From Archivesica marissinica (lineage: Eukaryota > Mollusca > Bivalvia > Venerida > Vesicomyidae): a DNA stretch of 64,000 bases. The notes below the pieces were generated by a model. The model was not told the origin of the DNA, did not search any database, and saw nothing but the letters and a program-made list of their open reading frames with translations. Positions within the stretch are counted from its first letter, which is position 1; the number at the start of each line of letters is the position of its first letter. Location of the stretch: NCBI GenBank assembly GCA_014843695.1, contig CM026394.1, positions 43,191,787 to 43,255,786 of the forward strand. The letters run 5' to 3'. Of this stretch, positions 1,769 to 39,072 are shown one piece after another. The translations under genes were made by a program, and so were the position numbers.

Positions 1769-1866
1769 CTGTTCACCCTTTATAGTTTCTATAATAGTGA
1801 GGTTCTGTGTATAGATAACGACCTTTCCCTGTAACTGTCGACCTCTAGGAACACCAACCACATAGT
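1769..1866 (-). CDS. Integrin alpha subunit, exon with DYVVGVPRG and NLT sequon
   Basis: The 98-nt exon lies between the acceptor tgttgtatttcag and the donor gtgaga. With the G from the previous exon it codes DYVVGVPRGRQLQGK, then VVIYTQNLTIIETIKGEQ, ending in phase 0. DxVVGVPRG is the FG-GAP strand of blade 4. KVVIY...GEQ is the following strand that leads, in the family, to a (M)xSYFGxSV segment; that exon is not in the window. NLT is a possible N-glycosylation site. A decayed duplicate of the first 60 or so bases lies directly upstream on the transcript (1891-1950). Confidence 0.93.
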
Positions 1867-4553: not shown

Positions 4554-4598
4554 CTTCCCTGGTATCCCCATCAAAGTTGCCAACATCGCTGGAATATC
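4554..4598 (-). CDS. Integrin alpha subunit, 45-nt exon (GYSSDVGNFDGD)
   Basis: The 45-nt exon lies between the acceptor tgtttgtttcag and the donor gtgagt. Two bases finish the Gly from the previous exon. The peptide YSSDVGNFDGDTRE follows, and one base starts the next Asp. GYSxxVGxFxGD is the first half of an integrin FG-GAP repeat in blade 4, and it continues into DYVVGVP in the next exon. Very small exons at this point are plausible for this family. Phases 1 in and 1 out match both neighbours. It lies between the 18-bp array (3.8-4.4 kb) and a SINE (4.66 kb). Confidence 0.92.
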
Positions 4599-4661: not shown

Positions 4662-4863
4662 TAACAGTCTTTCAGATGGGACGTTAAACCGAGGTCTCGT
4701 GTCGGTGCTTTACACCGTGCAAGTAAAAGAACCAGAGGAGACTCTGGAATGAGTATCTGTCTGTATCATTGCACTATCCTCCAAAAATCTAAAATGACTA
4801 ATCTCTTCAGGAGGCGTCGCTCATATGGGCAACCGGTAGCGACGATAAATAAACGTAAAACAC
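4662..4863 (+). mobile_element. SINE, 'cagtctttcagatgggac' family, 5'-truncated
   Basis: The copy runs from cagtctttcagatgggac through tctcttcaggaggcgtcgct to the tail gataaataaacgtaaaac. Other copies are at 18.95, 33.1 (minus, with tRNA-like head), 58.4/59.1 and 61.9 kb. The tRNA-like head is missing here. The 28-bp array begins at its 3' end. Confidence 0.85.
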
Positions 4864-6200: not shown

Positions 6201-6290
6201 CCATGTACGAGTAATCATCTTTGGCGCGGCCTTCCTTGGTTGCATGGTAACGACCAGGTCCATCCTCAAAATTAAAGTTGAAAACCTGAC
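6201..6290 (-). CDS. Integrin alpha subunit, exon with FEDGP segment
   Basis: The 90-nt exon lies between the acceptor aatccttcag and the donor gtaagt. It completes a Gly codon (G+GT), codes QVFNFNFEDGPGRYH, continues ATKEGRAKDDYSYM and ends with one base of a Gly codon. In integrin alpha chains the matching region links blade 3 to blade 4 and ends D-D-S-Y-L-G-Y-S; here it reads DDYSYM-GYS across the splice. FNFEDGP recalls the laminin-binding group, whereas the upstream EYSPCRS recalls the RGD-binding group, so invertebrate-type features are mixed. The 39-bp minisatellite array lies in the intron just upstream on the transcript. Confidence 0.92.
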
Positions 6291-11350: not shown

Positions 11351-11399
11351 CTTGCCAGTACCAACTGCCAACAGCGCCAATTAGTAGTTGTCTCCCTTG
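11351..11399 (-). CDS. Integrin alpha subunit, 49-nt exon (LLIGAVGSWYWQ)
   Basis: This short exon lies between the acceptor gtatgttacag and the donor gtaata. It codes QGRQLLIGAVGSWYWQ plus one base, entering phase 0 and leaving phase 1. The phases are exactly those required to join either alternative exon to the exon at 6290. In the family this piece reads like LLGGPGSYYWQG, the FG-GAP beta-strand and Trp-Gln-Gly turn of blade 3. The usual Pro of the GAP motif is Val here (GAVGS). The frame continues into GQVFNFNF. A (TTG)n tract starts about 64 nt into the following intron. Identification rests on motif, phase and position together. Confidence 0.88.
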
Positions 11400-19727: not shown

Positions 19728-19792
19728 TTCAGCCAGGGCTACACTGAAGCCGGCCTGGCACGAGCCTTCTCGATGGTAGCCCCAGTGTCCTC
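19728..19792 (-). CDS. Integrin alpha subunit, alternative exon B (CQAGFS version)
   Basis: The 65-nt exon lies between the acceptor tgtttacag and the donor gtgagt. Two bases complete the Arg codon started at 38952, and 21 codons follow, ending in phase 0. The peptide is R-GHWGYHREGSCQAGFSVALAE, the canonical form of the integrin alpha CQAGFS segment. It is a second version of the exon at 35410-35328. If both were spliced into one mRNA, the junction would be phase 0 into a phase 1 exon, and the shifted frame reaches TAG within this exon. The two are therefore structurally exclusive. Immediately downstream in + coordinates (19.92 kb on) begins the 9-kb minisatellite. This exon fits the family best, so it is probably the default isoform; that is inference. 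Confidence 0.9.
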
Positions 19793-19919
19793 CTGTAAAC
19801 AATATATATGCGGTATATACATAAACAATGTGCACACAATACTCAGATGCTCTATGTAAACATGTAACATTCACAATCACAAGACAAAGAAGAACAAATG
19901 GCCATGTTCCCTTCTTCCT

Positions 19920-22900
19920 GGTGGTGTTCCCTTCTAGCTCCCTACATATTCTATTGGTGGTGTTGTTCCCTTCTACCCCCCTACACATTCTATTGATGGT
20001 GTTCCCTTCTAGCTCCCTACATATTCTATTGGTGGTGTTCCCTTCTACCCCCCTACACATTATATTGGTGGTGTTCCCTTCTAGCTCCCTACACATTATA
20101 TAGGTGGTGTTCCCTTCTACCTCTCTACATATTCTATTGATGGTGTTCCCTTCTAGCTCCCTACATATTCTATTGGTGGTGTTCCCTTCTACCCCCCTAC
20201 ACATTATATTGGTGGTGTTCCCTTCTAGCTCCCTACACATTCTATTGGTGGTGTTCCCTTCTACCTCTCTACATATTCTATTGGTGGTGTTCCCTTCTAG
20301 CTCCCTACACATTATATAGGTGGTGTTCCCTTCTACCCCCTACACATTCTATTGGTTGTGTTCCCTTCTACCCCCCTACACATTATATTGGTGGTGTTCC
20401 CTTCTGCCTACCTACACATTCTATTGGTGGTGTTCCCTTCTGCCTACCTACACATTATATTGGTGATGTTCCCTTCTACCCCCCTACACATTCTACTGGT
20501 GGTGTTCCCTTCTGCCTACCTACACATTATATTGGTGGTGTTCCCTTCTACCTACCTACACATTATATTGGTGGTGTTCCCTTCTACCCCCCTACACATT
20601 ATATAGGTGGTGTTCCCTTCTGCCTACCTACACATTCAATTGGTGGTGTTCCCTTCTACCCACTACACATTCTATTGGTGGTGTTCCCTTCTACTACCCC
20701 ATACACATTATATTGGTTGTGTTCCCTTCTACCCCACCTACACATTATATAGGTGGTGTTCCCTTCTGCCTACCTACACATTCTATTGGTGGTGTTCCCT
20801 TCTACCTCCTACACATTCTATTGGTGGTGTTCCATTCTACCTACCTACACATTCTATTGGTGGTGTTCCCTTCTGCCTACCTACACATTCTATTGGTGGT
20901 GTTCCCTTCTGCCTACCTACACATTATATTGGTGGTGTTCCCTTCTACCCCCCTACACATTCTACTGGTGGTGTTCCCTTCTGCCTACCTACACATTCTA
21001 TTGGTGGTGTTCCCTTCTACCCCCTACACATTATATTGGTGGTGTTCCCTTCTACCCTCTACACATTCTATTGGTGGTGTTCCCTTCTACTACCCCCTAC
21101 ACATTATATTGATGGTGTTCCCTTCTACTACCCCCTACACATTATATTGGTTGTGTTCCCTTCTACCCCCCTACACATTATATAGGTGGTGTTCCCTTCT
21201 GCCTACCTACACATTCTATTGGTGGTGTTCCCTTCTACCCCCTACACATTATATTGGTGGTGTTCCCTTCTACTACCCCCTACACATTATATTGTTGTGT
21301 TCCCTTCTACCCCCTACACATTATATGGTGGTGTTCCCTTCTACCTACACATTCTATTGGTGGTGTCCCTTCTACCCCTACACATTATATTGGTGGTGTT
21401 CCATTCTACCTACCTACACATTATATTGGTGGTGTTCCCTTCTACCCCCTACACATTATATTGGTGGTGTTCCCTTCTACCCCCTACACATTATATTGGT
21501 GGTGTTCCCTTCTACCCCCTACACATTATATTGGTGGTGTTCCCTTCTACCTCCCTACACATTCTATTGGTGGTGTTCCCTTCTACCTCCCTACACATTA
21601 TATTGGTGGTGTTCCCTTCTACCCCCTACACATTCTATTGGTGTGTTCCCTTCTACCCCCCTACACATTATATTGGTGGTGTTCCCTTCTGCCTACCTAC
21701 ACATTCTATTGGTGGTGTTCCCTTCTACCTACCTACACATTATAGGTGGTGTTCCCTTCTACCCCCTACACATTCTATTGGTGGTGTTCCCTTCTACTAC
21801 CTACACATTATATTGGTGGTGTTCCCTTCTACCTACCTACACATTATATTGGTGGTGTTCCCTTCTACCCCCTACACATTCTATTGGTGGTGTTCCCTTC
21901 TACTACCCCCTACACATTCTATTGGTGGTGTTCCCTTCTACTACCCCTACACATTCTATTGGTGGTGTTCCCTTCTACCTACCTACACATTATATTGGTG
22001 GTGTTCCCTTCTACCTACCTACACATTCTATTGGTGGTGTTCCCTTCTACCTACCTACACATTCTATTGGTGGTGTTCCCTTCTACCTACCTACACATTC
22101 TATTGGTGGTGTTCCCTTCTACCCCCCTACACATTCTATTGGTGGTGTTCCCTTCTACCTCCTACACATTCTATTGGTGGTGTTCCCTTCTACCTACCTA
22201 CACATTCTATTGGTGGTGTTCCCTTCTACCCCCTACACATTCTATTGGTGGTGTTCCCTTCTACTACCCCCTACACATTCTATTGGTGGTGTTCCCTTCT
22301 ACTCCTACACATTCTATTGGTGGTGTTCCCTTCTACTACCCCCTACACATTCTATTGTGGTGTTCCCTTCTACTCCCCTACACATTATATTGGTGGTGTT
22401 CCCTTCTACCCCCTACACATTCTATTGGTGGTGTTCCCTTCTACCTCCTACACATTCTATTGGTGGTGTTCCCTTCTACCCCCTACACATTCTATTGGTG
22501 GTGTTCCCTTCTACCCCCTACACATTATATTGGTGGTGTTCCCTTCTACCCCCTACACATTATATTGGTGGTGTTCCCTTCTACCTCCTACACATTCTAT
22601 TGGTGGTGTTCCCTTCTACCCCCTACACATTCTATTGGTGGTGTTCCCTTCTACCCCCTACACATATATTAGTGGTGTTCCCTTCTACCCCCTACACATT
22701 CTATTGGTGGTGTTCCATTCTACTACCCCCTACACATTATATTGGTGGTGTTCCATTCTACCTACCTACACATTATATTGGTGGTGTTCCCTTCTACTAC
22801 CCCCTACACATTATATTGGTGGTGTTCCATTCTACCTACCTACACATTATATTGGTGGTGTTCCCTTCTACTACCCCCTACACATTATATTGGTGGTGTT

Positions 22901-25900
22901 CTATTCTACCTATCTACACATTCTATTGGTTGTGTTCCCTTCTACCCCCTACACATTCTATTGGTTGTGTTCCCTTCTACCCCCCTACACATTATATAGG
23001 TGGTGTTCCCTTCTGCCTACCTACACATTCTATTGGTGGTGTTCACTTCTACCCCCTACACATTCTATTGGTGGTGTTCCCTTCTACCTACCTACACATT
23101 CTATTGGTGGTGTTCCCTTCTACTACCCCCTACACATTCTATTGGTGGTGTTCCCTTCTACTACCCCCTACACATTATATTGGTGGTGTTCCCTTTTACT
23201 ACCCCCTACACATTCTATTGGTGGTGTTCCCTTCTACTACCCCCTACACATTCTATTGGTGGTGTTCCCTTCTACTACCCCCTACACATTCTATTGGTGG
23301 TGTTCCCTTCTTCTACCCCCTACACATTCTATTGTGGTGTTCCCTTCTAGCTCCCTACATATTCTATTGTGGTGTTCCCGTCTACCCCCTACACATTCTA
23401 TTGGTGGTGTTCCCTTNNNNNNNNNNNNNNNNNNNNNNNNNNNNNNNNNNNNNNNNNNNNNNNNNNNNNNNNNNNNNNNNNNNNNNNNNNNNNNNNNNNN
23501 NNNNNNNNNNNNNNNNNNNNNNNNNNNNNNNNNNNNNNNNNNNNNNNNNNNNNNNNNNNNNNNNNNNNNNNNNNNNNNNNNNNNNNNNNNNNNNNNNNNN
23601 NNNNNNNNNNNNNNNNNNNNNNNNNNNNNNNNNNNNNNNNNNNNNNNNNNNNNNNNNNNNNNNNNNNNNNNNNNNNNNNNNNNNNNNNNNNNNNNNNNNN
23701 NNNNNNNNNNNNNNNNNNNNNNNNNNNNNNNNNNNNNNNNNNNNNNNNNNNNNNNNNNNNNNNNNNNNNNNNNNNNNNNNNNNNNNNNNNNNNNNNNNNN
23801 NNNNNNNNNNNNNNNNNNNNNNNNNNNNNNNNNNNNNNNNNNNNNNNNNNNNNNNNNNNNNNNNNNNNNNNNNNNNNNNNNNNNNNNNNNNNNNNNNNNN
23901 NNNNNNNNNNNNNNNNNNNNNNNNNNNNNNNNNNNNNNNNNNNNNNNNNNNNNNNNNNNNNNNNNNNNNNNNNNNNNNNNNNNNNNNNNNNNNNNNNNNN
24001 NNNNNNNNNNNNNNNNNNNNNNNNNNNNNNNNNNNNNNNNNNNNNNNNNNNNNNNNNNNNNNNNNNNNNNNNNNNNNNNNNNNNNNNNNNNNNNNNNNNN
24101 NNNNNNNNNNNNNNNNNNNNNNNNNNNNNNNNNNNNNNNNNNNNNNNNNNNNNNNNNNNNNNNNNNNNNNNNNNNNNNNNNNNNNNNNNNNNNNNNNNNN
24201 NNNNNNNNNNNNNNNNNNNNNNNNNNNNNNNNNNNNNNNNNNNNNNNNNNNNNNNNNNNNNNNNNNNNNNNNNNNNNNNNNNNNNNNNNNNNNNNNNNNN
24301 NNNNNNNNNNNNNNNNNNNNNNNNNNNNNNNNNNNNNNNNNNNNNNNNNNNNNNNNNNNNNNNNNNNNNNNNNNNNNNNNNNNNNNNNNNNNNNNNNNNN
24401 NNNNNNNNNNNNNNNNCCTTCTACTACCCCCTACACATTCTATTGGTGGTGTTCCTTTCTACTACCCCCTACACATTATATTGGTGGTGTTCCCTTTTAC
24501 TACCCCCTACACATTCTATTGGTGGTGTTCCCTTCTACTACCCCCTACACATTCTATTGGTGGTGTTCCCTTCTACTACCCCCTACACATTCTATTGGTG
24601 GTGTTCCCTTCTTCTACCCCCTACACATTCTATTGTGGTGTTCCCTTCTAGCTCCCTACATATTCTATTGTGGTGTTCCCGTCTACCCCCTACACATTCT
24701 ATTGGTGGTGTTCCCTTCTACCCCCTACACATTCTATTGATGGTGTTCCCTTCTACCCCCTACACATCCTATTGTGGTGTTCCCTTCTACCCCCTACACA
24801 TTCTATTGGTGGTGTTCCCTTCCACCCCCTACACATTCTAGTGTGGTGTTCCCTTCTATCCCCTACACATTCTATTGTGGTGTTCCCTTCTACCCCCTAC
24901 ACATTATATAGGTGGTGTTCCCTTCTATCCCCTACACATTCTATTGGTGGTGTTCCCTTCTACCTCCCTACATATTCTATTGGTGGTGTTCCCTTCTAGC
25001 TCCCTACACATTATATTGGTGGTGTTCCCTTCTACCCCCCTACACATTATATAGGTGGTGTTCCCTTCTACCGCCCTACATATTCTATTGGTGGTGTTCC
25101 CTTCTAGCTCCCTACACATTATATAGGTGGTGTTCCCTTCTACCCCCTACACATTATAGTGGTGGTGTTCCCTTCTACCCCCTACACATTATATTGGTGT
25201 GTTCCCTTCTACTACCCCCTACACATTATATAGGTGGTGTTCCCTTCTACCCCCTACACATTATATTGGTGGTGTTCCCTTCTACTACCCCCTACACATT
25301 CTATTGGTGGTGTTCCCTTCTACCTCCCTACACATTCTATTGGTGGTGTTCCCTTCTACCCCTACACATTATATTGGTGGTGTTCCCTTCTACTACCCTC
25401 TACACATTCTATTGTGGTGTTCCCTTCTACTACCCCCTACACATTATATTGGTGGTGTTCCCTTCTACTACCCCTACACATTCTATGGTGGAGTTCCCTT
25501 CTACCTACCTACACATTATATTGGTGGTGTTCCCTTCTCCTACCTACACATCTATGTGGTGTTCCCTTCTACCCCCTACACACATTATATTGGTGGTGTT
25601 CCCTTCTACTACCCCTACACATTATATTGGTGGTGTTCCCTTCTACCTACCTACACATTCTATTGGTGGTGTTCCCTTCTACTCCCTACACATTCTATTG
25701 GTGGTGTTCCCTTCTTCTACCCCCTACACATTCTATTGGTGGTGTTCCCTTCTACCACCCCCTACACATTCTATTGATGGTGTTCCCTTCTACCCCCTAC
25801 ACATTATATTGGTGGTGTTCCCTTCTACTCCCTACACATTATATTGGTGGTGTTCCATTTTACCCCCTACACATTATATTGGTGGTGTTCCCTTCTACCC

Positions 25901-28900
25901 CCTACACATTATATTGGTGGTGTTCCCTTCTACTCCCTACACATTCTATTGGTGCTGTTCCCTTCTACCTACCTACACATTCTATTGGTGGTGTTCCCTT
26001 CTACTCCCCCTACACATTCTATTGGTGGTGTTCCCTTCTACTACCCCCTACACATTATATGGTGGTGTTCCCTTTTACTACCCCCTACACATTCTATTGG
26101 TGGTGTTCCCTTCTACCCCCTACACATTCTATTGGTGGTGTTCCCTTCTACCCCCTACACATTCTAGTGTGGTGTTCCCTTCTATCCCCTACACATTCTA
26201 TTGGGTGTTCCCTTCTACCCCCTACACATTATATAGGTGGTGTTCCCTTCTATCCCCTACACATTCTATTGGTGGTGTTCCCTTCTACCTCCTACAATTC
26301 TATTGGTGGTGTTCCCTTCTAGCTCCCTACACATTAATTGGTGGTGTTCCCTTCTAGCTCCCTACACATTATATAGGTGGTGTTCCCTTCTACACCCCCT
26401 ACACATTATAGTGGTGGTGTTCCTTCTACCCCCTACACATTATATTGGTGGTGTTCCCTTCTACTACCCCCTACACATTATATAGGTGGTGTTCCCTTCT
26501 ACCCCCTACACATTATATTGGTGGTGTTCCCTTCTACTACCCCCTACACATTCTATTGGTGGTGTTCCCTTCTACCTACCTACACATTCTATTGGTGGTG
26601 TTCCCTTCTACCCCCTACACATTCTATTGGTGGTGTTCCCTTCTACCTACCTACACATTCTATTGGTGGTGTTCCCTTCTACTACCCCCTACACATTCTA
26701 TTGGTGGTGTTCCCTTCTACCCCCTACACATTCTATTGGTAGTGTTCCCTTCTACTACACCCTACACATTCTATTGGTGGAGTTCCCTTCTACCTACCTA
26801 CACATTATATTGGTGGTGTTCCCTTCTACCTACCTACACATTCTATTGGTGGTGTTCCCTTCTGCCTACCTACACATTCTATTGGTGGTGTTCCCTTCTG
26901 CCTACCTACACATTATATTGGTGGTGTTCCCTTCTACCCCCCTACACATTATATTGGTGGTGTTCCCTTCTACCTACCTACACATTCTATTGGTGGTGTT
27001 CCCTTCTACTACCTACACATTATATTGGTGGTGTTCCCTTCTACCCCCTACACATTATATTGGTGTTCCCTTCTACTCCCTACACATTCTATTGGTGGTG
27101 TTCCCTTCTTCTACCTCCCTACACATTCTATTGGTGGTGTTCCCTTCTACACCCCCTACACATTATATTGTGGTGTTCCCTTCTACCCCCTACATTATAT
27201 TGGTGGTGTTCCATTTTACCCCCACACATTATATTGGTGGTGTTCCCTTCTACCCCCTACACATTATATTGGTGGTGTTCCCTTCTACTCCCTACACATT
27301 CTATTGGTGGTGTTCCCTTCTACCTACCTACACATTTTATTGGTGGTGTTCCCTTCTTCTACTCCCTACACATTCTATTGGTGGTGTTCCCTTCTTCTAC
27401 TCCCTACACATTCTATTGGTGGTGTTCCCTTCTACCACCCCCTACACATTCTATTGATGGTGTTCCCTTCTACCCCCTACACATTATATTGGTGGTGTTC
27501 CCTTTTACCCCCTACACATTATATTGGTGGTGTTCCCTTCTACCCCCTACACATTCTATTGATGGTGTTCCCTTCTACCCCCTACACATTCTATTGGTGG
27601 TGTTCCCTTCTACCTCCCTACATATTCTATTGGTGGTGTTCCCTTCTAGCTCCCTACATATTATATTGGTGGTGTTCCCTTCTACCCCCTACACATTATA
27701 TAGGTGGTGTTCCCTTCTAGCTCCCTACACATTATATAGGTGGTGTTCCCTTCTACTCCCTACACATTATGTTGGTGGTGTTCCCTTCTACCCCCTACAC
27801 ATTATATTGGTGGTGTTCCCTTCTACTACCCCCTACACATTCTATTGGTGGTGTTCCCTTCTACTACCCCCTACACATTATATTGGTGGTGTTCCCTTCT
27901 ACTACACCCTACACATTCTATTGGTGGTGTTCCCTTCTACCTACCTACACATTATATTGGTGGTGTTCCCTTCTACCTACCTACACATTATATTGGTGGT
28001 GTTCCCTTCTACCTACCTACACATTCTATTGGTGGTGTTCCCTTCTACCCCCTACACATTATATTGGTGGTGTTCCCCTCTACTACCCCCTACACATTCT
28101 ATTGCATAATTGGTGGTGTTCCCTTCTACCTACCTACACATTTTATTGGTGGTGTTCCCTTCTTCTACTCCCTACACATTATATTGGTGGTGTTCCCTTC
28201 TACTACCCCCTACACATTCTATTGGTGGTATTTCCCTTCTACTACCCCCTACACATTCTATTGGTGGTATTCCCTTCTACTACCCCCTACACATTCTATT
28301 GGTTGTGTTCCCTTCTACTACCCCCTACACATTATATTGTTGTGTTCCCTTCTACTCCCCTACACATTCTATTGGTGGTGTTCCCTTCTATCCCCTACAC
28401 ATTCTATTGGTGGTGTTCCCTTCTATCCCCTACACATTCTATTGGTGGTGTTCCCTTCTATCCCCTACACATTATATTGGTGGTATTCCCTTCTACTACC
28501 CCCTACACATTCTATTGGTTGTGTTCCCTTCTACTACCCCCTACACATTCTATTGGTGGTGTTCCCTTCTATCCCCTACACATTCTATTGGTGGTGTTCC
28601 CTTCTATCCCCTACACATTCTATTGGTGGTGTTCCCTTCTACCTCCCTACACATTCTATTGGTGGTGTTCCCTTCTACTACCCTCTACACATTATATTGG
28701 TGGTGTTCCCTTCTACCTACCTACACATTATATTGGTGGTGTTCCCTTCTACTACCCCCTACACATTATATAGATGGTGTTCCCTTCTTCTACCCCCTAC
28801 ACATTCTATTGTGGTGTTCCCTTCTAGCTCCCTACACATTCTATTGGTGGTGTTCCCTTCTAGCTCCCTACACATTATATAGGTGGTGTTCCCTTCTATC

Positions 28901-29045
28901 CCCTACACATTCTAGTGGTGGTCTTCCCTTCTACCTCCCTACATATTCTATTGGTGGTGTTCCCTTCTATCCCCTACACATTATATTGGTGGTGTTCCCT
29001 TCTATCCCCTACACATTCTATTGGTGGTGTTCCCTTCTACCTCCC
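19920..29045. repeat. 35-38-bp minisatellite array, about 225 visible copies, with gap
   Basis: The unit core is tattggtggtgttcccttct followed by accccctacacattc. Inserted cta (ctactacccc), tagctcc and gcctacc variants give 35-, 36- and 38-bp lengths. The 1000-base run of N at 23417-24416 interrupts it. Length changes of 1 and 3 bases shuffle the frame, and the long apparent plus-strand frames are artefacts. It fills most of the intron between alternative exons A and B. On the transcribed strand each unit has two G-runs (taggggg and agaaggg). Confidence 0.97.
23417..24416. other. Assembly gap (1000 N)
   Basis: This is an exact 1000-base N run, a conventional placeholder for a gap of unknown size. 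The 301 bases on its left (23116-23416) match 24417-24717 on its right with a single mismatch. Confidence 0.98.
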
Positions 29046-29194
29046 TACATATAACTACTATACATCTAACAATTTTCCTCAACATTTCTCAACTGTTTCT
29101 CTCAGTCATTCTTGTGTGTGCCCCTGTATGCCTCTTAAGCAAACTCAGTTTTAGTTCATCACTCCACATGCTTTGTACCTCCAAGTACCCTTCC

Positions 29195-29438
29195 TTAACC
29201 CATTCAACACCAAGTAACTCACATGGACTGGTCCATGATATTTTTAGACCAATAAATGAATAACAAAATTACATTTGGATCAGTTCATTTATCAAAATGG
29301 GTAATTTTTTTCCTAAAAATAGTTATATTACTTGAAAAAAGTGCAGATCCTGATGAGACGGCTCGTCACGAGCCGGCTCATCTGGATCTACACTTTTTTG
29401 TAAGCCAATTTAGAGGTATGTGGTGTTGAAAGGGTTAA
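29195..29438 (-). mobile_element. TTAA MITE family A, copy 2
   Basis: The copy is bounded by ttaacccattcaacacc and ggtgttgaaagggttaa. The centre is a near-perfect palindrome (gacggctcgtcacgagccgg). TTAA ends with CCC/GGG inside are typical of piggyBac-type MITEs. It is inverted relative to the copies at 29608 and 31688. Confidence 0.88.
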
Positions 29439-29607
29439 ATGAACCTAATATGAAATCTTAAAGAGAATATTTCTTTGAATGATTATTCTAATAGTTTTTA
29501 TATTTATTTATTTATGCGGTTGTCTGCCGGAGGTTTGCTATATCGTATTGCTTTTGTTTATTAGGAAACTACACAGGGCGTACGTCTATTGTCTATGTAA
29601 ACCTATA

Positions 29608-29833
29608 TTAACCCTTTCAACGCCACAGGCCTCTAAATAGGCTTATGAAAAGTGTAGATCCAGATGATCTCATCAGGATCTGCACTTTTTTGCCAGTAAT
29701 AATTATTACTATTTTTAGATAAAATTACCCATTTTGATAAATGAACTGGTCCAAAGGTAATTTTCTTATTAATTTATTGGTCTGAAAATATCATGGACCA
29801 GTCCATGTCAGTTACTTGGGCTTGAATGGGTTA
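29608..29833 (+). mobile_element. TTAA MITE family A, copy 3
   Basis: The copy starts ttaaccctttcaacgccaca and ends cttgaatgggtta. It lacks about 20 bases of the central palindrome. Confidence 0.86.
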
Positions 29834-30304
29834 GGCATACATTCTAAACCGAATAATAAAAGTTTAAAAAATTAAAATAAATAATAAACAAAGAGGCTAA
29901 ACTTGACTAGAGTTGCCCACCGGATTTTTCATGTATATACAAAAAATGATTAAAATGCAAAATTGTCATGCTTGTTTGAATGGATCCGGCTCAATAATAT
30001 GGCTTACAACATACTAATTGGATATAATAACAGTTGAAATACGTTCCTTATCGAAAGAAAACAAACTCATGTAAATATTTATATAATTTATGACAATGTT
30101 TCATGAACATTTGGTCAAAATAGAGCTTCTACAGTGTTTACATGATTTTCTTTAAATTGACCTAGTGACCTATATTTTATAAGAATATTGCCAATTCTTT
30201 AAAGGAAAAAACCACCTTTCATTAATATGTATCAAGATAGATCCTACAGCATTCACAATTGTGGCTTTTCTGCAACTTTTAACCAACTTTATTTTTACTG
30301 AAAA

Positions 30305-30680
30305 TGGTCAGTTATCAAAACAAACCAATCATTTATGAAGATGTAAAACATGGTCGATTATCAAAACAAACCAATCATTTATGAAGATGTAAAACATGGT
30401 CGATTATCAAAACAAACCAATCATTTATGAAGATGTAAAACATGGTCGATTATCAAAACAAACCAATCATTTATGAAGAAATAAAACATGGTCGATTATC
30501 AAAACAAACCAATCATTTATGAAGATGTAAAACATGGTCGATTATCAAAACAAACCAATCATTTATGAAGAAATAAAACATGGTCGATTATCAAAACAAA
30601 CCAATCATTTATGTAGAAATAAAACATGGTCGATTATCAAAACAAACCAATCATTTATGAAGATGTAAAACATGGTCGAG
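30305..30680. repeat. 46-bp tandem repeat (about 8 copies)
   Basis: The unit contains aaacatggtcgattatcaaa and acaaaccaatcatttatgaa, with gatgt or gaaat variants. Confidence 0.93.
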
Positions 30681-30882
30681 TATCCGGAGAAAAACCACCT
30701 GATCGATCTGGCGACAACCGTACCATTGAAAATATTAGAAGCCAGATCAAACTTGATCACCTACAGCCATTGGGTTTGGTCATGTTAAACAAACACAAGC
30801 AAAATTGTTACTTAAAACAATACATACAAAAATAGTGTCAGAAAGAAAACACAATCCACTTGCTCAAAGCATGTCGGCAGAA

Positions 30883-31066
30883 CACAAGTCTGTTAGAACT
30901 TGAGCACTGATCTGCTAGAACTTGAGCACTGATCTGTTAGAACTCGAGCAAAAGTCTGTTAGAACTCAAGCAAAAGTCTGTTAGAACTCGAGCACTGGTC
31001 TGTTAGAACTCGAGCATAATTCTGTTAGAACTCGAGCACTGGTCTGTTAGAACGAGCATAATTCTG
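30883..31066. repeat. 22-bp tandem repeat (about 8 copies)
   Basis: The unit is tctgttagaactcgagcact plus gg, with aaaag and ataat variants. Confidence 0.9.
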
Positions 31067-31069
31067 TTA

Positions 31070-31687
31070 ACAACACCTGCCCTGTCTTGTCAAGACAGTT
31101 TGGTGTATTACGCCCCCTCTGGCGGCAAAAAACCAGCTATTTTTAGTACAAAGTAACAATCTCTTCTGTAGCTCTGTGGTGACAGCTCAACAGTTACGCC
31201 CAGCTATCTTTCTATCCTCCCCACACCCCACTCCCCCACCCCCCGAAGGAATGCGAGACTACACTGAATATGTGAATATATAAATATCGTACAAATAAAC
31301 AAGGGCGTTTCCTTTCTGACACAGAAACTTAACATGAACATTACAAACATGGAACACTTGCAAATTATGAGTGGACACTTACTATATGTATAGTAACATG
31401 GTAACATGTTAAACTTCCTTGCGACATGTTAAACTTCCTTGCGCAATATGCATGTATATAAGTACAATATATATGAAGTAAGATAGCACAACCCCTGGAG
31501 TCCTGCAGTCTATACAACAAGGCAAACATTCATGTACAGTGCAGCCCCAAAACATTACTGCAGTTCTGAAAACATGTCATATTATGATATACAGTCTAGT
31601 CCAAAAATGTTTTCCACATTAAAAAAACCCTGAAAAATGGAAAAACTATAAAAATGCACATTATATGTACAGATAGAGTTTATACGT
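31070..31687. other. Unique intron sequence
   Basis: No exon or element is recognised. A short direct repeat, catgttaaacttccttgcg, occurs twice near 31405-31445. Confidence 0.4.
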
Positions 31688-31932
31688 TTAACCCTTTCAA
31701 CACCACAGACCTCTAAATTGGCTTACAAAAAAGTGTAGATCCAGATGAGCCGGCTCGTGACGAGCCGTCTCATCAGGATCTGCACTTTTTTCAAGCAATA
31801 TAACTATTTTTAGGGGAAAAAATTACCCATTTTGATAAATGAACTGATCCAAATGTAATTTTGTTATTAATTTATTTGTCTAAAAATATCATGGACCAGT
31901 CCATGTCAGTTACTTGGTGTTGAATGGGTTAA
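31688..31932 (+). mobile_element. TTAA MITE family A, copy 4
   Basis: This full copy runs from ttaaccctttcaacaccaca to ggtgttgaatgggttaa, with the central palindrome gagccggctcgtgacgagcc. It is nearly identical to the reverse complement of the copy at 29195. Confidence 0.9.
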
Positions 31933-32145
31933 TGGCATATATATACATCAGTTTTCTTCAAAACTTCGATCCTCGCTGTTCTACCTGAAATATATTCTAT
32001 TCTAAAAATAATCAGCATTCAAGTAAATAAATTCACTGCAAATAAATCATGAAAAATAAACTAAACAGAAAATGAAACACAATCAAAATTAATGAACTAG
32101 ATGAAGCAGTTATACAAGATAAAGCGTGTTCAGAAAAATAGTTGG

Positions 32146-32236
32146 TTAACCCTTTCACCCCTGTATGACAGAAATACTCCCAATAGCCATAACGATGCCA
32201 GAAGTCTATCATGACAAAATGGGTTGAAAGGGTTAA
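32146..32236. mobile_element. Short TTAA MITE (family C)
   Basis: This roughly 90-bp element has ends ttaaccctttcacccctgt and gggttgaaagggttaa. The termini resemble families A and B but the inside differs. Confidence 0.65.
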
Positions 32237-32999
32237 AAGTGCCGGGTATTGGAAAGCTAGCTTAGGTACTGAGTAACGATAAAAAGCTGTGAGGCTTAAA
32301 AAGCAAGGGTACCGATTTGGAAAGAAGCACAGAAGCATTTTAGGTGTAATTTATTGATACAACAGACAGACAAGACATACAGACAGACAGAACAATAGGA
32401 CAGCTTTAACAGGGAAGTGATTAGAATCATATGAACTATACATGTAGAGTCATTATTCGAAAGAAAGTTTGAGTAGAAATGTTGGGGCATTATATGTTAT
32501 TGATAGTACTACAGTACCAAGAATTTTCCTATTTTTACATTGTATGAAACTGGATAACTTGATAGGGAATTTTGTGATCTCACAAAGGCATTTGATTCTT
32601 CCTACAAATCATATATTGCTTTCCTTCTAATTAATTCACATTCATTCTTGCTCAGTCATACCGTATTAGTTATAAACTGTATTAAATCTACGGGACATTT
32701 AGCTAGACCGGGATTGGCTAACACTATTGTAGTATATGCATATATATGTATAGATACTGCCTAGCAACTTGCTTCTGCTGGATTACTAAAAGGTTTCCAA
32801 AGGAATTCTATAAATGTTGGGTCATTCTAGACAAGGTTATAAGCATACACAAATGCAATGGAGTTTGACAGAAGAATGCATGTTTTCCTCGTTGATTTTA
32901 CAACTCTGCAACACATTTTAATTATATAAAACTTCTATGAAAGTCTACATTTTCCTTTTTTAATTACAAAACAATGCTCGAATTTGCTGGTTTTTCTAT

Positions 33000-33472
33000 T
33001 ACCTCCCTTGGAAGATAAAGCCCGATTTAACACGAAATGTACATTGGTCCTTTTAGTTGGAATCCTTTGTAATCACATTTATCATACGACAACATCTGTT
33101 TAAGGATTTTATTTTTACGTTTATTTATCATCACTACCGGTTGCCCATATGAGCTATGTCTCCTGAAGAGATTAGTCATTTTAGATTTTTGGAGGATAGT
33201 GCAATGATAAAGACAGAGACCCATTCCAGAGTCTTCTCTATTTCTTTTACGTACATGGTGTAAAGCACGGACACGAGACCTTGGTTTAAAGTCCCATTGA
33301 AAGACTATTCATTTTATTAGGGTCAGCAGGGGGATCGAACCTGCAATCCCTGGGTTACCAGTCCAGCGTGTTACCACAGGACTACAGATCCGTCTAACAA
33401 AGGATTCAAACTAAAAGAACCCATTTACATTTTGGGATAAATCAGGCTGTATCTGCCAAGGGAGGTAATAGA
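33000..33472. mobile_element. Palindromic MITE carrying an inserted SINE
   Basis: The left arm, ctattacctcccttgg to ttggaatcctttg (about 33000-33070), is the reverse complement of the right arm, caaaggattcaaac to ccaagggaggtaatag (33398-33472). Arm-like fragments recur at 41.76 and 49.1 kb. The loop is occupied by a full SINE. Confidence 0.8.
33110..33397 (-). mobile_element. Full-length tRNA-derived SINE, 'cagtctttcagatgggac' family
   Basis: On the minus strand it starts with a tRNA-like head: an A-box-like tgtagtcctgtggtaacacg and the B box ggttcgatcccc. It continues into gtctttcaatgggactttaa and ends gataaataaacgtaaaa. It is the best copy for defining this family's head. The tRNA-like part is a polymerase III promoter remnant, not a functional tRNA gene. 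Confidence 0.88.
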
Positions 33473-33721
33473 AAATTAGAGATGTCTCTCATTAATAATA
33501 CATATCCTTAAAATAGTATTCAGGGGAAGTAACTAACGCTTCACTGTTGACTGTAGAGATGTGTACTTTAGAGAGATTGAAACTGGGACTTTAATTCTAT
33601 GGGATTTTACAAGCAGACACAACACTTTGTGGGACTTTACAAATATAGGTGTACTATACAGCTAACAGGTATGTATTTCTCTCTGTGGAAGCGATCTAAA
33701 TTCTATAAGCTAACAGATAGT

Positions 33722-33803
33722 TTAAACCTTTCCCCAATAGAGACGCAGAATTAGATCCTACTGTATCTCCATACATACGACAGGCATGTGGGGAAAGGGT
33801 TAA
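33722..33803. mobile_element. Short TTAA inverted-repeat element (family D)
   Basis: The termini are ttaaacctttcccca and tggggaaagggttaa, about 80 bp apart. Confidence 0.6.
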
Positions 33804-34108
33804 AGGCTGTGTTTAAAGGGATACACACTAGCATGCAATGGTATACCAAAGTGGTTTTACCTCATTCTGAGAGACAGAATAAAGACACATATAAGGGTTA
33901 AAATGTGACTGTTAGAATACATAAATATATCAGACATAGACAATCATTTTAAGTGCGAAACGACACACAATATTCTGACCAATGTCCTAGTGTAAAATTA
34001 AGTGTGCTTTGACTACATATGTAACTTTTTTTTTAAACTATCGAATATATGTATGAAACTGAGTACATGATTATAGTTTCCGTGTAACAATCAATCTATT
34101 CTAATGGA

Positions 34109-34923
34109 TACCGTATTTAGCTGTGTATAGTGCGCTACCGTGTATAGTGCGCACCCACGATCTGGCACGAAAATCGGCGGAAAAACTGAGTTCCTATGTA
34201 TACTGCGCACGTGAAAAACGCAATTTTCCAAGTCAAAATTTAACATTTCTCAAAAATCGCTAAAAATTGTGCTCCGTGATTTTTACAACTTATATTAATC
34301 ACTCGAGATATACCTCATCGCACTCGGGCACACCTGCTCAAATTTCTCGACACGTTCTCAAACATCTCAACACGTTCTCAAACATGTCAGCAGATGCTCA
34401 AACTTCTCAACACGTGAAGCCTACCTAATTAACTGGGACCCATTGTGAAAGGTTTGTCGAAATTAATTATCGCTACAATCAATTGAAATACTGCAGCCAA
34501 AAGTTTTTTATTATGCAATGCATTGTACATTGTACGGCGAAGTACGCGAAAAGTACGGGAAATATTACATACGATAAAACCACGTGATGTTATAAATCGC
34601 CATTTTTTATGCATTTACCTTTCAATTAAATTCATCAAAGTTTGCCAAAATAAACGAAATATATGCTAATTTTGTGGTCTTATTCATTTGATTTATTTAT
34701 ATAGACTATCGGCAACTGGTTTTAATAGCTAGTTTATAACGATTGTCGAATGTAACAACTTATAGAATGACTGTGGGCCGTTGGGTCGAATTTCAGTTTT
34801 TTCACGAAATTTTGGTCCGGAAAAAAATGTCCTGATGTCTGTACTGGTGTATAATGCGCAGTAGATAAAATGGATGAGGATTTCAGTAAGAAATGTGCGC
34901 ACTATACACAGCTAAATACGGTA
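34109..34923. mobile_element. Non-autonomous DNA transposon, about 815 bp
   Basis: The terminal inverted repeats are taccgtatttagctgtgtat and atacacagctaaatacggta. They continue inward with tagtgcgc / gcgcacta, flanked by TA-like bases. No transposase frame is present. A SINE-tail-like fragment (acttatattaatcactcgag) lies inside. Confidence 0.83.
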
Positions 34924-35327
34924 TATAAAATATGTAACGTACATCTTTCTTGTGCATAAAAGTGCAAAAACACGGTAGACAGGTTGTGACAACACAGATT
35001 CAGAGGTGATAGTTAAAGCTGGGATATAACCATGGTGATATTTTATCAATGCTATAAAAACCATGTTTGAACATTATGCACATCAATTTGGAACAATTTT
35101 TTTATTTTTTGGAGCAATTTTTTGGCTGTTTTCGCTATTGATTTTTTGTGTGGATAAATTATGTTTTACTGAATATTTGAAGAATAGAGAAACGGTTGGA
35201 CCGCAGATTTATAATCCCGAACTCTAGCACCTCTGTAAATGAACGACATTTATGTGACCGTAATTTATGTGACCGCATGGGCAAACTTAAGTGAGATGTT
35301 GATAATGTGATCGGGCGTCACACTTAC
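34924..35327. other. Unique intron sequence after alternative exon A
   Basis: No further copy of the CQxGFS exon is seen here on the minus strand. Confidence 0.4.
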
Positions 35328-35410
35328 TCCTGTTAAAACAGCAGAAAATCCAAGCTGGCAGGACCCCTGTTGGTGAAACTGATCCGTAACCAATGGCAAC
35401 CCATCCACAC
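35328..35410 (-). CDS. Integrin alpha subunit, alternative exon A (CQLGFS version)
   Basis: The 83-nt exon lies between the acceptor catttag and the donor gtaagt. Two bases complete the Arg codon begun by the exon at 38952, then 27 codons end in phase 0. The peptide is R-VDGLPLVTDQFHQQ followed by GSCQLGFSAVLTG. The Gly-x-Cys-Gln-x-Gly-Phe-Ser motif is the conserved integrin alpha sequence that follows EYxPCRS in propeller blade 3. It competes with the exon at 19792-19728, which codes the same segment with the same phases. The stretch before GSCQ is six residues longer here and differs in sequence. Leu replaces the more usual Ala or Gly in CQAGFS, so this could be a specialised isoform or a less constrained exon. 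The 15.5-kb intron between the two alternatives holds the largest tandem array in the window. Confidence 0.85.
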
Positions 35411-38951: not shown

Positions 38952-39072
38952 GTGACCGGCACGGTGAATATTCCTCGTAGTCCGTCGATGTGGGTCTGGC
39001 AACATAACATGTACCAACAGGTTCACGCTTGTCCAGCCGGGTTGAGAAGTAGACATATCTAGGAGCACATGC
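38952..39072 (-). CDS. Integrin alpha subunit, internal exon (propeller segment CAPRY...EYSPCRS)
   Basis: This exon codes 40 residues plus one base. It starts after a pyrimidine-rich acceptor (tgtttgtttcag) and ends at the donor gtaagt, so it enters in phase 0 and leaves in phase 1. The peptide opens ACAPRYVYFS, passes EPVGTCYVARP and ends EYSPCRS. The order Cys-Ala-Pro-x-Tyr, then Pro-Val-Gly-Thr-Cys-Tyr, then Glu-Tyr-x-Pro-Cys-Arg-Ser is the hallmark of integrin alpha chains without an I domain, at the end of propeller blade 2. The family is a cell-surface adhesion receptor that pairs with a beta subunit and binds matrix ligands through the top of the propeller. EYSPCRS followed by CQxGFS resembles the PS2/alpha5/alphaV-like group more than laminin-binding alphas, but I cannot settle the subfamily. 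Its last base joins either of two downstream exons. Confidence 0.93.

Follow-up and report, generated by a model that had tools for sequence, protein, structure and literature searches.

Exon 8 of Drosophila alphaPS2, which we take to be an alternatively spliced propeller exon of an RGD-type invertebrate integrin, is presumably a cassette that is included or skipped, not one of two alternatives, and would lie farther along the propeller than the exons described here. In vertebrates, ITGA7 carries the mutually exclusive alternative propeller exons X1 and X2, which, according to passages of two reports, shift laminin preference (PMC8860092, PMC12564407). In a mollusc, three ITGA8 isoforms are described from muscle of the abalone Haliotis gigantea (PMC13170236, January 2026). 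In excerpts of that paper, isoforms 1 and 2, studied by RT-PCR, capillary electrophoresis and Sanger sequencing, differ in exon 5, which is called mutually exclusive; a minigene was built of exons 3, 4, 5-1, 5-2 and 6, and a variant of this minigene yields a form that skips both 5-1 and 5-2 (PMC13170236). Open-licence PMC was searched for further integrins of this kind, from molluscs or with tandem exons; among the matches listed only the abalone paper fits, and the available part of an oyster integrin paper (PMC7390872) does not mention exons. More generally, tandem exon substitution is presented, in passages of another paper, as an old, tissue-specific device (PMC9741552).

The window, that is, the whole stretch of 64,000 nucleotides of Archivesica marissinica DNA that was analysed, carries on its minus strand part of what is, to judge from its predicted product, an integrin alpha gene that belongs to the RGD-receptor-like alpha5/alphaV class. 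It is highly probable, on the sequence, that a propeller exon of this gene was duplicated, and that the two copies, A and B, are alternatives enforced by splice phase, which would swap a loop of the RGD pocket. Thirteen exon positions (exons 2-14) were traced with flanking DNA from the same contig, with order and phases consistent on both sides. They are given below in transcript order; exons outside the window are in window numbering (beyond its end, or negative), and a slash marks an exon border.

82949-82828 and 80703-80600, minus strand: exons 2 and 3, upstream, in flanking DNA beyond the window end
38952-39072, minus strand: constant exon 4 (ACAPRYVYFSTRLDKREPVGTCYVARPTSTDYEEYSPCRS), 121 nt, phase 0 in, 1 out, donor CAC/gtaagt
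35328-35410, minus strand: alternative exon A (5A), (R)VDGLPLVTDQFHQQGSCQLGFSAVLTG, 83 nt, tttag/GTG ... GGA/gtaagt, 19 residues between the Cys pair
23417-24416, no strand: assembly gap of 1000 N in the A-B intron, inside the minisatellite array at 19919-29049
19728-19792, minus strand: alternative exon B (5B), (R)GHWGYHREGSCQAGFSVALAE, 65 nt, tacag/GAG ... GAA/gtgagt, 13 residues between the Cys pair
11351-11399, minus strand: constant exon 6 (QGRQLLIGAVGSWYWQ), 49 nt, phase 0 in, 1 out
6201-6290, minus strand: constant exon 7 (QVFNFNFEDGPGRYHATKEGRAKDDYSYM), phase 1 in, 1 out, the sole candidate of a motif-and-phase scan
4554-4598, minus strand: constant exon 8 (YSSDVGNFDGDTRE), phase 1 in, 1 out
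1769-1866, minus strand: constant exon 9 (DYVVGVPRGRQLQGKVVIYTQNLTIIETIKGEQ), phase 1 in, 0 out
-6537 to -15078, minus strand: exons 10-14, downstream, in flanking DNA

A motif search for exon 1 in 82970-144000, beyond the window, found none. A decayed copy of the first half of exon 9 lies a short way upstream of that exon (1950-1895, minus strand; 51 of 59 aligned columns identical, 3 gaps), and its broken frame makes it look like a failed tandem duplication within the same gene.

The class assignment comes from the joined product of exons 2-14 with B (396 residues). Its best match in protein comparison is alpha5 (2.7e-86), followed by alphaV (2.2e-82), alphaIIb (5.1e-65), alpha4 (3e-53) and alpha6 (2e-47). 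Pfam finds FG-GAP repeats in the exons 2-14 product (1.2e-25); the short exon pieces gave no Pfam match at E<=1, and scans with Rfam (gathering thresholds) and for tRNAs gave no match. Blades 2 and 3 are joined directly, with no inserted I domain, as in the alpha5/alphaV class, and I-domain alphas align to about residues 126-389 only of the exons 2-14 product. We would expect the encoded alpha subunit to bind RGD. Membership among the laminin-type receptors with X1/X2 was considered and rejected: alpha6 is far behind alpha5, and A and B precede GSWYWQG, presumably upstream of the X1/X2 position.

The phases of the two alternative exons define what a transcript can encode. Both A and B are entered in phase 1 and left in phase 0. 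Over exons 2-14, the frame contains no stop with A alone and none with B alone, as compared to 15 stops with neither exon and 16 with both. When the two are joined together, a TAG is read inside B, 11 nt before its end and 60 nt upstream of the exon 6/7 junction; when both are skipped, a stop ends 19 nt into exon 7, 71 nt upstream of the exon 7/8 junction. Stops farther than 50-55 nt upstream of a junction are open to decay, so that both wrong products would be decay-prone. A and B are homologous neighbours of equal phase, one of which is needed to keep the frame, as is the rule for mutually exclusive tandem exons. Exclusion by phase would work both ways, against both and against neither, as a product filter on transcripts; whether double inclusion or skipping is already avoided during splicing does not follow from such a filter. 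In abalone, the minigene is able to leave out both copies, so exclusion in splicing is not absolute. A sequence-only reading made before this analysis had placed the relevant borders (35410-35328, 19792-19728, 38952 and 11399) correctly; the phases that it gave for A and B agree with the exon borders, and joined reading bears out its statements that either exon alone keeps the frame and that inclusion of both shifts it into the TAG of B; the stop that follows when both are skipped goes beyond that reading.

The question arises as to what the choice between A and B would change in the protein. The alternative exon contributes the second Cys and most of a Cys-Cys loop, the first Cys being provided by exon 4, which ends with EYSPCRS and matches alpha5, alphaV and alphaIIb. 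By PDB chain numbering, the cysteines of this loop, which we take to be disulfide-bonded, are C142/C155 in alphaV, C151/C164 in alpha5 and C146/C167 in alphaIIb. The pair encloses 12 residues in alphaV and in alpha5, 20 in alphaIIb, 13 in B and 19 in A. The alignment places alphaV Asp150, alpha5 Phe155 and Trp157, and alphaIIb Phe160 within the stretch that this exon encodes, a more exact result than the earlier suggestion that the differing residues lie near ligand contacts. According to excerpts of the papers concerned, alphaV Asp150 together with Asp218 holds the cilengitide arginine (PMC3267166), alpha5 Phe155 and Trp157 belong to a pocket exploited for alpha5 specificity (PMC12392869), and alphaIIb Phe160 is said to contact tirofiban (PMC8678471). 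Trp157 of alpha5 is also described there as dispensable for fibronectin binding (PMC12392869), and a change in the loop need not, therefore, alter the natural ligand.

In the switch region, the two versions differ in their nearest vertebrate relative. A with exon 6 matches alphaIIb best (25.2 bits; alphaV 22.4, alpha5 22.2), and B with exon 6 matches alpha5 best (31.0 bits; alphaV 30.1), alphaIIb being absent among its 35 matches at E<=0.1. In these alignments a Phe of A falls at alphaIIb Phe160, and alpha5 Trp157 is matched by a Trp of B. The alphaIIb preference of A is small and tracks loop length, and it disappears once exon 4 is added to the query (alphaV 45.7 bits, alpha5 45.4, alphaIIb 44.1). 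Given that the whole gene is nearer to alpha5/alphaV, a resemblance of A to alphaIIb would be likeness, not descent.

If ligand choice were little affected, the pair might mainly set the amount of receptor: transcripts with both exons or neither would go to decay, and the two proteins would differ little in ligand. The distance of both stops from the next junction (60 and 71 nt) speaks for such a control, and the variant abalone minigene, in the passages of the paper that describe it, gives the form without either copy. On the other hand, A and B are least alike in the pocket loop (19 versus 13 residues) and most alike in the framework, and an exon that serves purely as an on/off switch has no need of a second version that codes. 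We consider this scenario unlikely, and prefer that of what is very probably a true mutually exclusive exon pair, enforced by phase and rebuilding the ligand-pocket loop.

The splice signals of the two exons were examined too. The donors of A and B rank in the top 2.7% and 0.9%, respectively, among 8156 GT sites, as scored with an approximate donor matrix. The acceptor pyrimidine tracts, a point against the pair, are only moderate (0.625 for A, B and exon 6; 0.75 for exon 4). Pairing between docking and selector sequences in introns is one known mechanism for mutually exclusive exons, and is not obligatory. Among 15 pairs of intron flanks (up to 300 nt, from this gene alone; 30 block shuffles each), z ranged from -2.24 to 1.76; all 15 were thus inside 2.3 SD of the shuffles, and they give no sign of a pairing that would account for exon choice. 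Steric exclusion is unlikely, the 15.5 kb that separate A and B counting against crowding, and no U2/U12 incompatibility is seen, the donors being gtaagt for A and gtgagt for B.

A and B themselves are copies of each other. Their 15-residue cores, FHQQGSCQLGFSAVL in A and YHREGSCQAGFSVAL in B, score 57 with BLOSUM62, whereas the best other site in the window for either core scores 25, and the best scores of the B core in six Markov-1 random 64-kb sequences are 24-28. A score of 57 against at most 28 rules out chance similarity. The claim of the sequence-only reading that these are two versions of one propeller exon is supported. When 14 exon queries were run over 204 kb, A and B were the only ones to match each other at E<=0.05. 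Nine of 17 aligned codons encode the same residue in both, seven of these nine by different codons, and for one shared Ser A has TCT where B has AGT. So many silent differences suggest that the duplication is old and that both copies have been maintained for the protein they encode; A and B both look selected at that level.

Alternatively, one copy, more likely A, could be a relic or hardly used, and make no contribution to protein. With exon 4 included, A is indeed farther from alpha5/alphaV than B (45.4-45.7 bits versus 53.1-54.3). However, A is free of stops, its phases are correct, its donor is gtaagt and its substitutions are of the coding type; a relic would not retain GSCQxGFS with nothing but silent changes around this motif. 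Moreover, both versions occur in abalone cDNA, according to the excerpts of that study, if the abalone exon is equivalent. A relic is, in our view, still less probable than a control of receptor amount, and the reading in which both copies serve as protein is retained.

The soundness of the assembly was considered as well, over 1,537,303,305 bases in 2808 contigs. A query of exons 4-B-6 gave two matches at E<=0.001 among the best 6 candidates, and a query of exons 4-A-9 gave six matches at E<=1 among the best 8, all of them the gene's own exons; for exon 4, the sole genome match at E<=0.001 among the best candidates scored is its own site. Distant paralogues may escape such best-candidate searches, and the integrin family in general surely has more distant members. 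It is hardly credible that two related genes, one holding exon 4 and A, the other holding B and the exons from 6 on, have been fused across the N gap: the 1000-N gap does separate A from B, but one and the same 36-bp minisatellite stands on both of its edges, no second copy of exon 4, 7 or 9 is found in the whole assembly among the best 6 and 8 candidates scored, and exons 2-14 keep their order, and fit in phase, from one side of the gap to the other.

Several features of the surrounding DNA were recorded along the way. Two further gaps of exactly 1000 N occur within 204 kb (115171-116170 and -48498 to -47499, window numbering), and this repetition makes 1000 N seem the standard gap size of the assembly, not a measured length. 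The array of the 36-bp minisatellite (19919-29049, about 9 kb) comes to within about 130 bases of exon B on the upstream side, and its units are open on the minus strand into the frame of B, giving a 220-residue open stretch (20339-19677). Arrays found by Tandem Repeats Finder (score of at least 150) cover 30525 of the 64000 bases of the window, the 1000 N included; their units often have 18-48 bases, and the introns of the integrin alpha gene are largely built of them. A dispersed repeat is present in five copies (at 4834, 19141, 58446 and 62103 on the minus strand, and at 33139 on the plus strand), with a translation resembling GCPYERxLLKRLVILDFWRIVQ, and is probably an interspersed element of the host genome.

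We would explain the pair A/B as follows. One small propeller exon would have been duplicated long ago, and its copies would have become alternatives. Ordinary regulated GT-AG splicing would select the copy, exclusivity at the protein level being built into the exon phases, with nonsense-mediated decay degrading transcripts that hold both or neither. The choice would swap a Cys-closed loop at the RGD-pocket position, of 13 residues with B or 19 with A, and this swap may alter ligand choice or affinity, as in alpha7 X1/X2 but through the neighbouring segment. Much more tentatively, and leaning somewhat against it, we also consider that one gene switches between an alpha5/alphaV-sized and an alphaIIb-sized loop in the RGD pocket, thereby covering ligand ranges that vertebrates split among genes, and that this switch is old, common to at least abalone and Archivesica marissinica, and independent of X1/X2. 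A limited search of open-licence PMC found no description of such a switch in loop size, and the available passages of the abalone paper (PMC13170236) do not discuss the loop.

Among known systems, abalone ITGA8 resembles the present locus in having a mutually exclusive propeller exon 5, and its order 4, 5-1, 5-2, 6, as given in excerpts of the report, agrees with that of A and B, which would also be the fifth exon if a single exon precedes exon 2. From position and order, A and B are probably the equivalent of 5-1 and 5-2. The abalone reverse primer, which its authors assign to exon 11, translates in one frame as LTKLGD, and the similar AAIGD is found here in exon 12, so exon numbering is off by one somewhere. 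Six abalone primers and the probe, taken from the available part of the paper, find nothing close to them in the window: the best primer has 5 mismatches (6-7 in one-shuffle controls) and the probe 9, with 4 in its 17-base core; over 204 kb, four primers and the probe reach 5 and 9 at best. A repeat of abalone type has 0 matches in the whole assembly when up to 1 mismatch is allowed, so that an animal other than abalone is the probable source. An event of this kind is already in print for a mollusc, and is less new than the sequence-only reading had assumed.

Should the proposed switch be true, exons recoding the pocket loop of an RGD integrin would give two adhesion receptors from a single gene. 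In combination with the abalone study, which concerns colour, A and B would provide two short constructs for testing a ligand switch, and their sequences would allow the switch to be dated from other genomes. Vertebrate ITGA7 X1/X2 (and ITGA6 X1, X1X2) are similar to A and B in being alternative propeller exons, and differ in belonging to laminin receptors, as opposed to the alpha5/alphaV-like gene found here. The X1/X2 segment, we assume, follows the YxWxG motif, which is exon 7 here, so that A and B lie just before that segment, not on it: X1/X2 changes the adjacent segment, and does so in laminin receptors, and A/B would act on the pocket loop itself.
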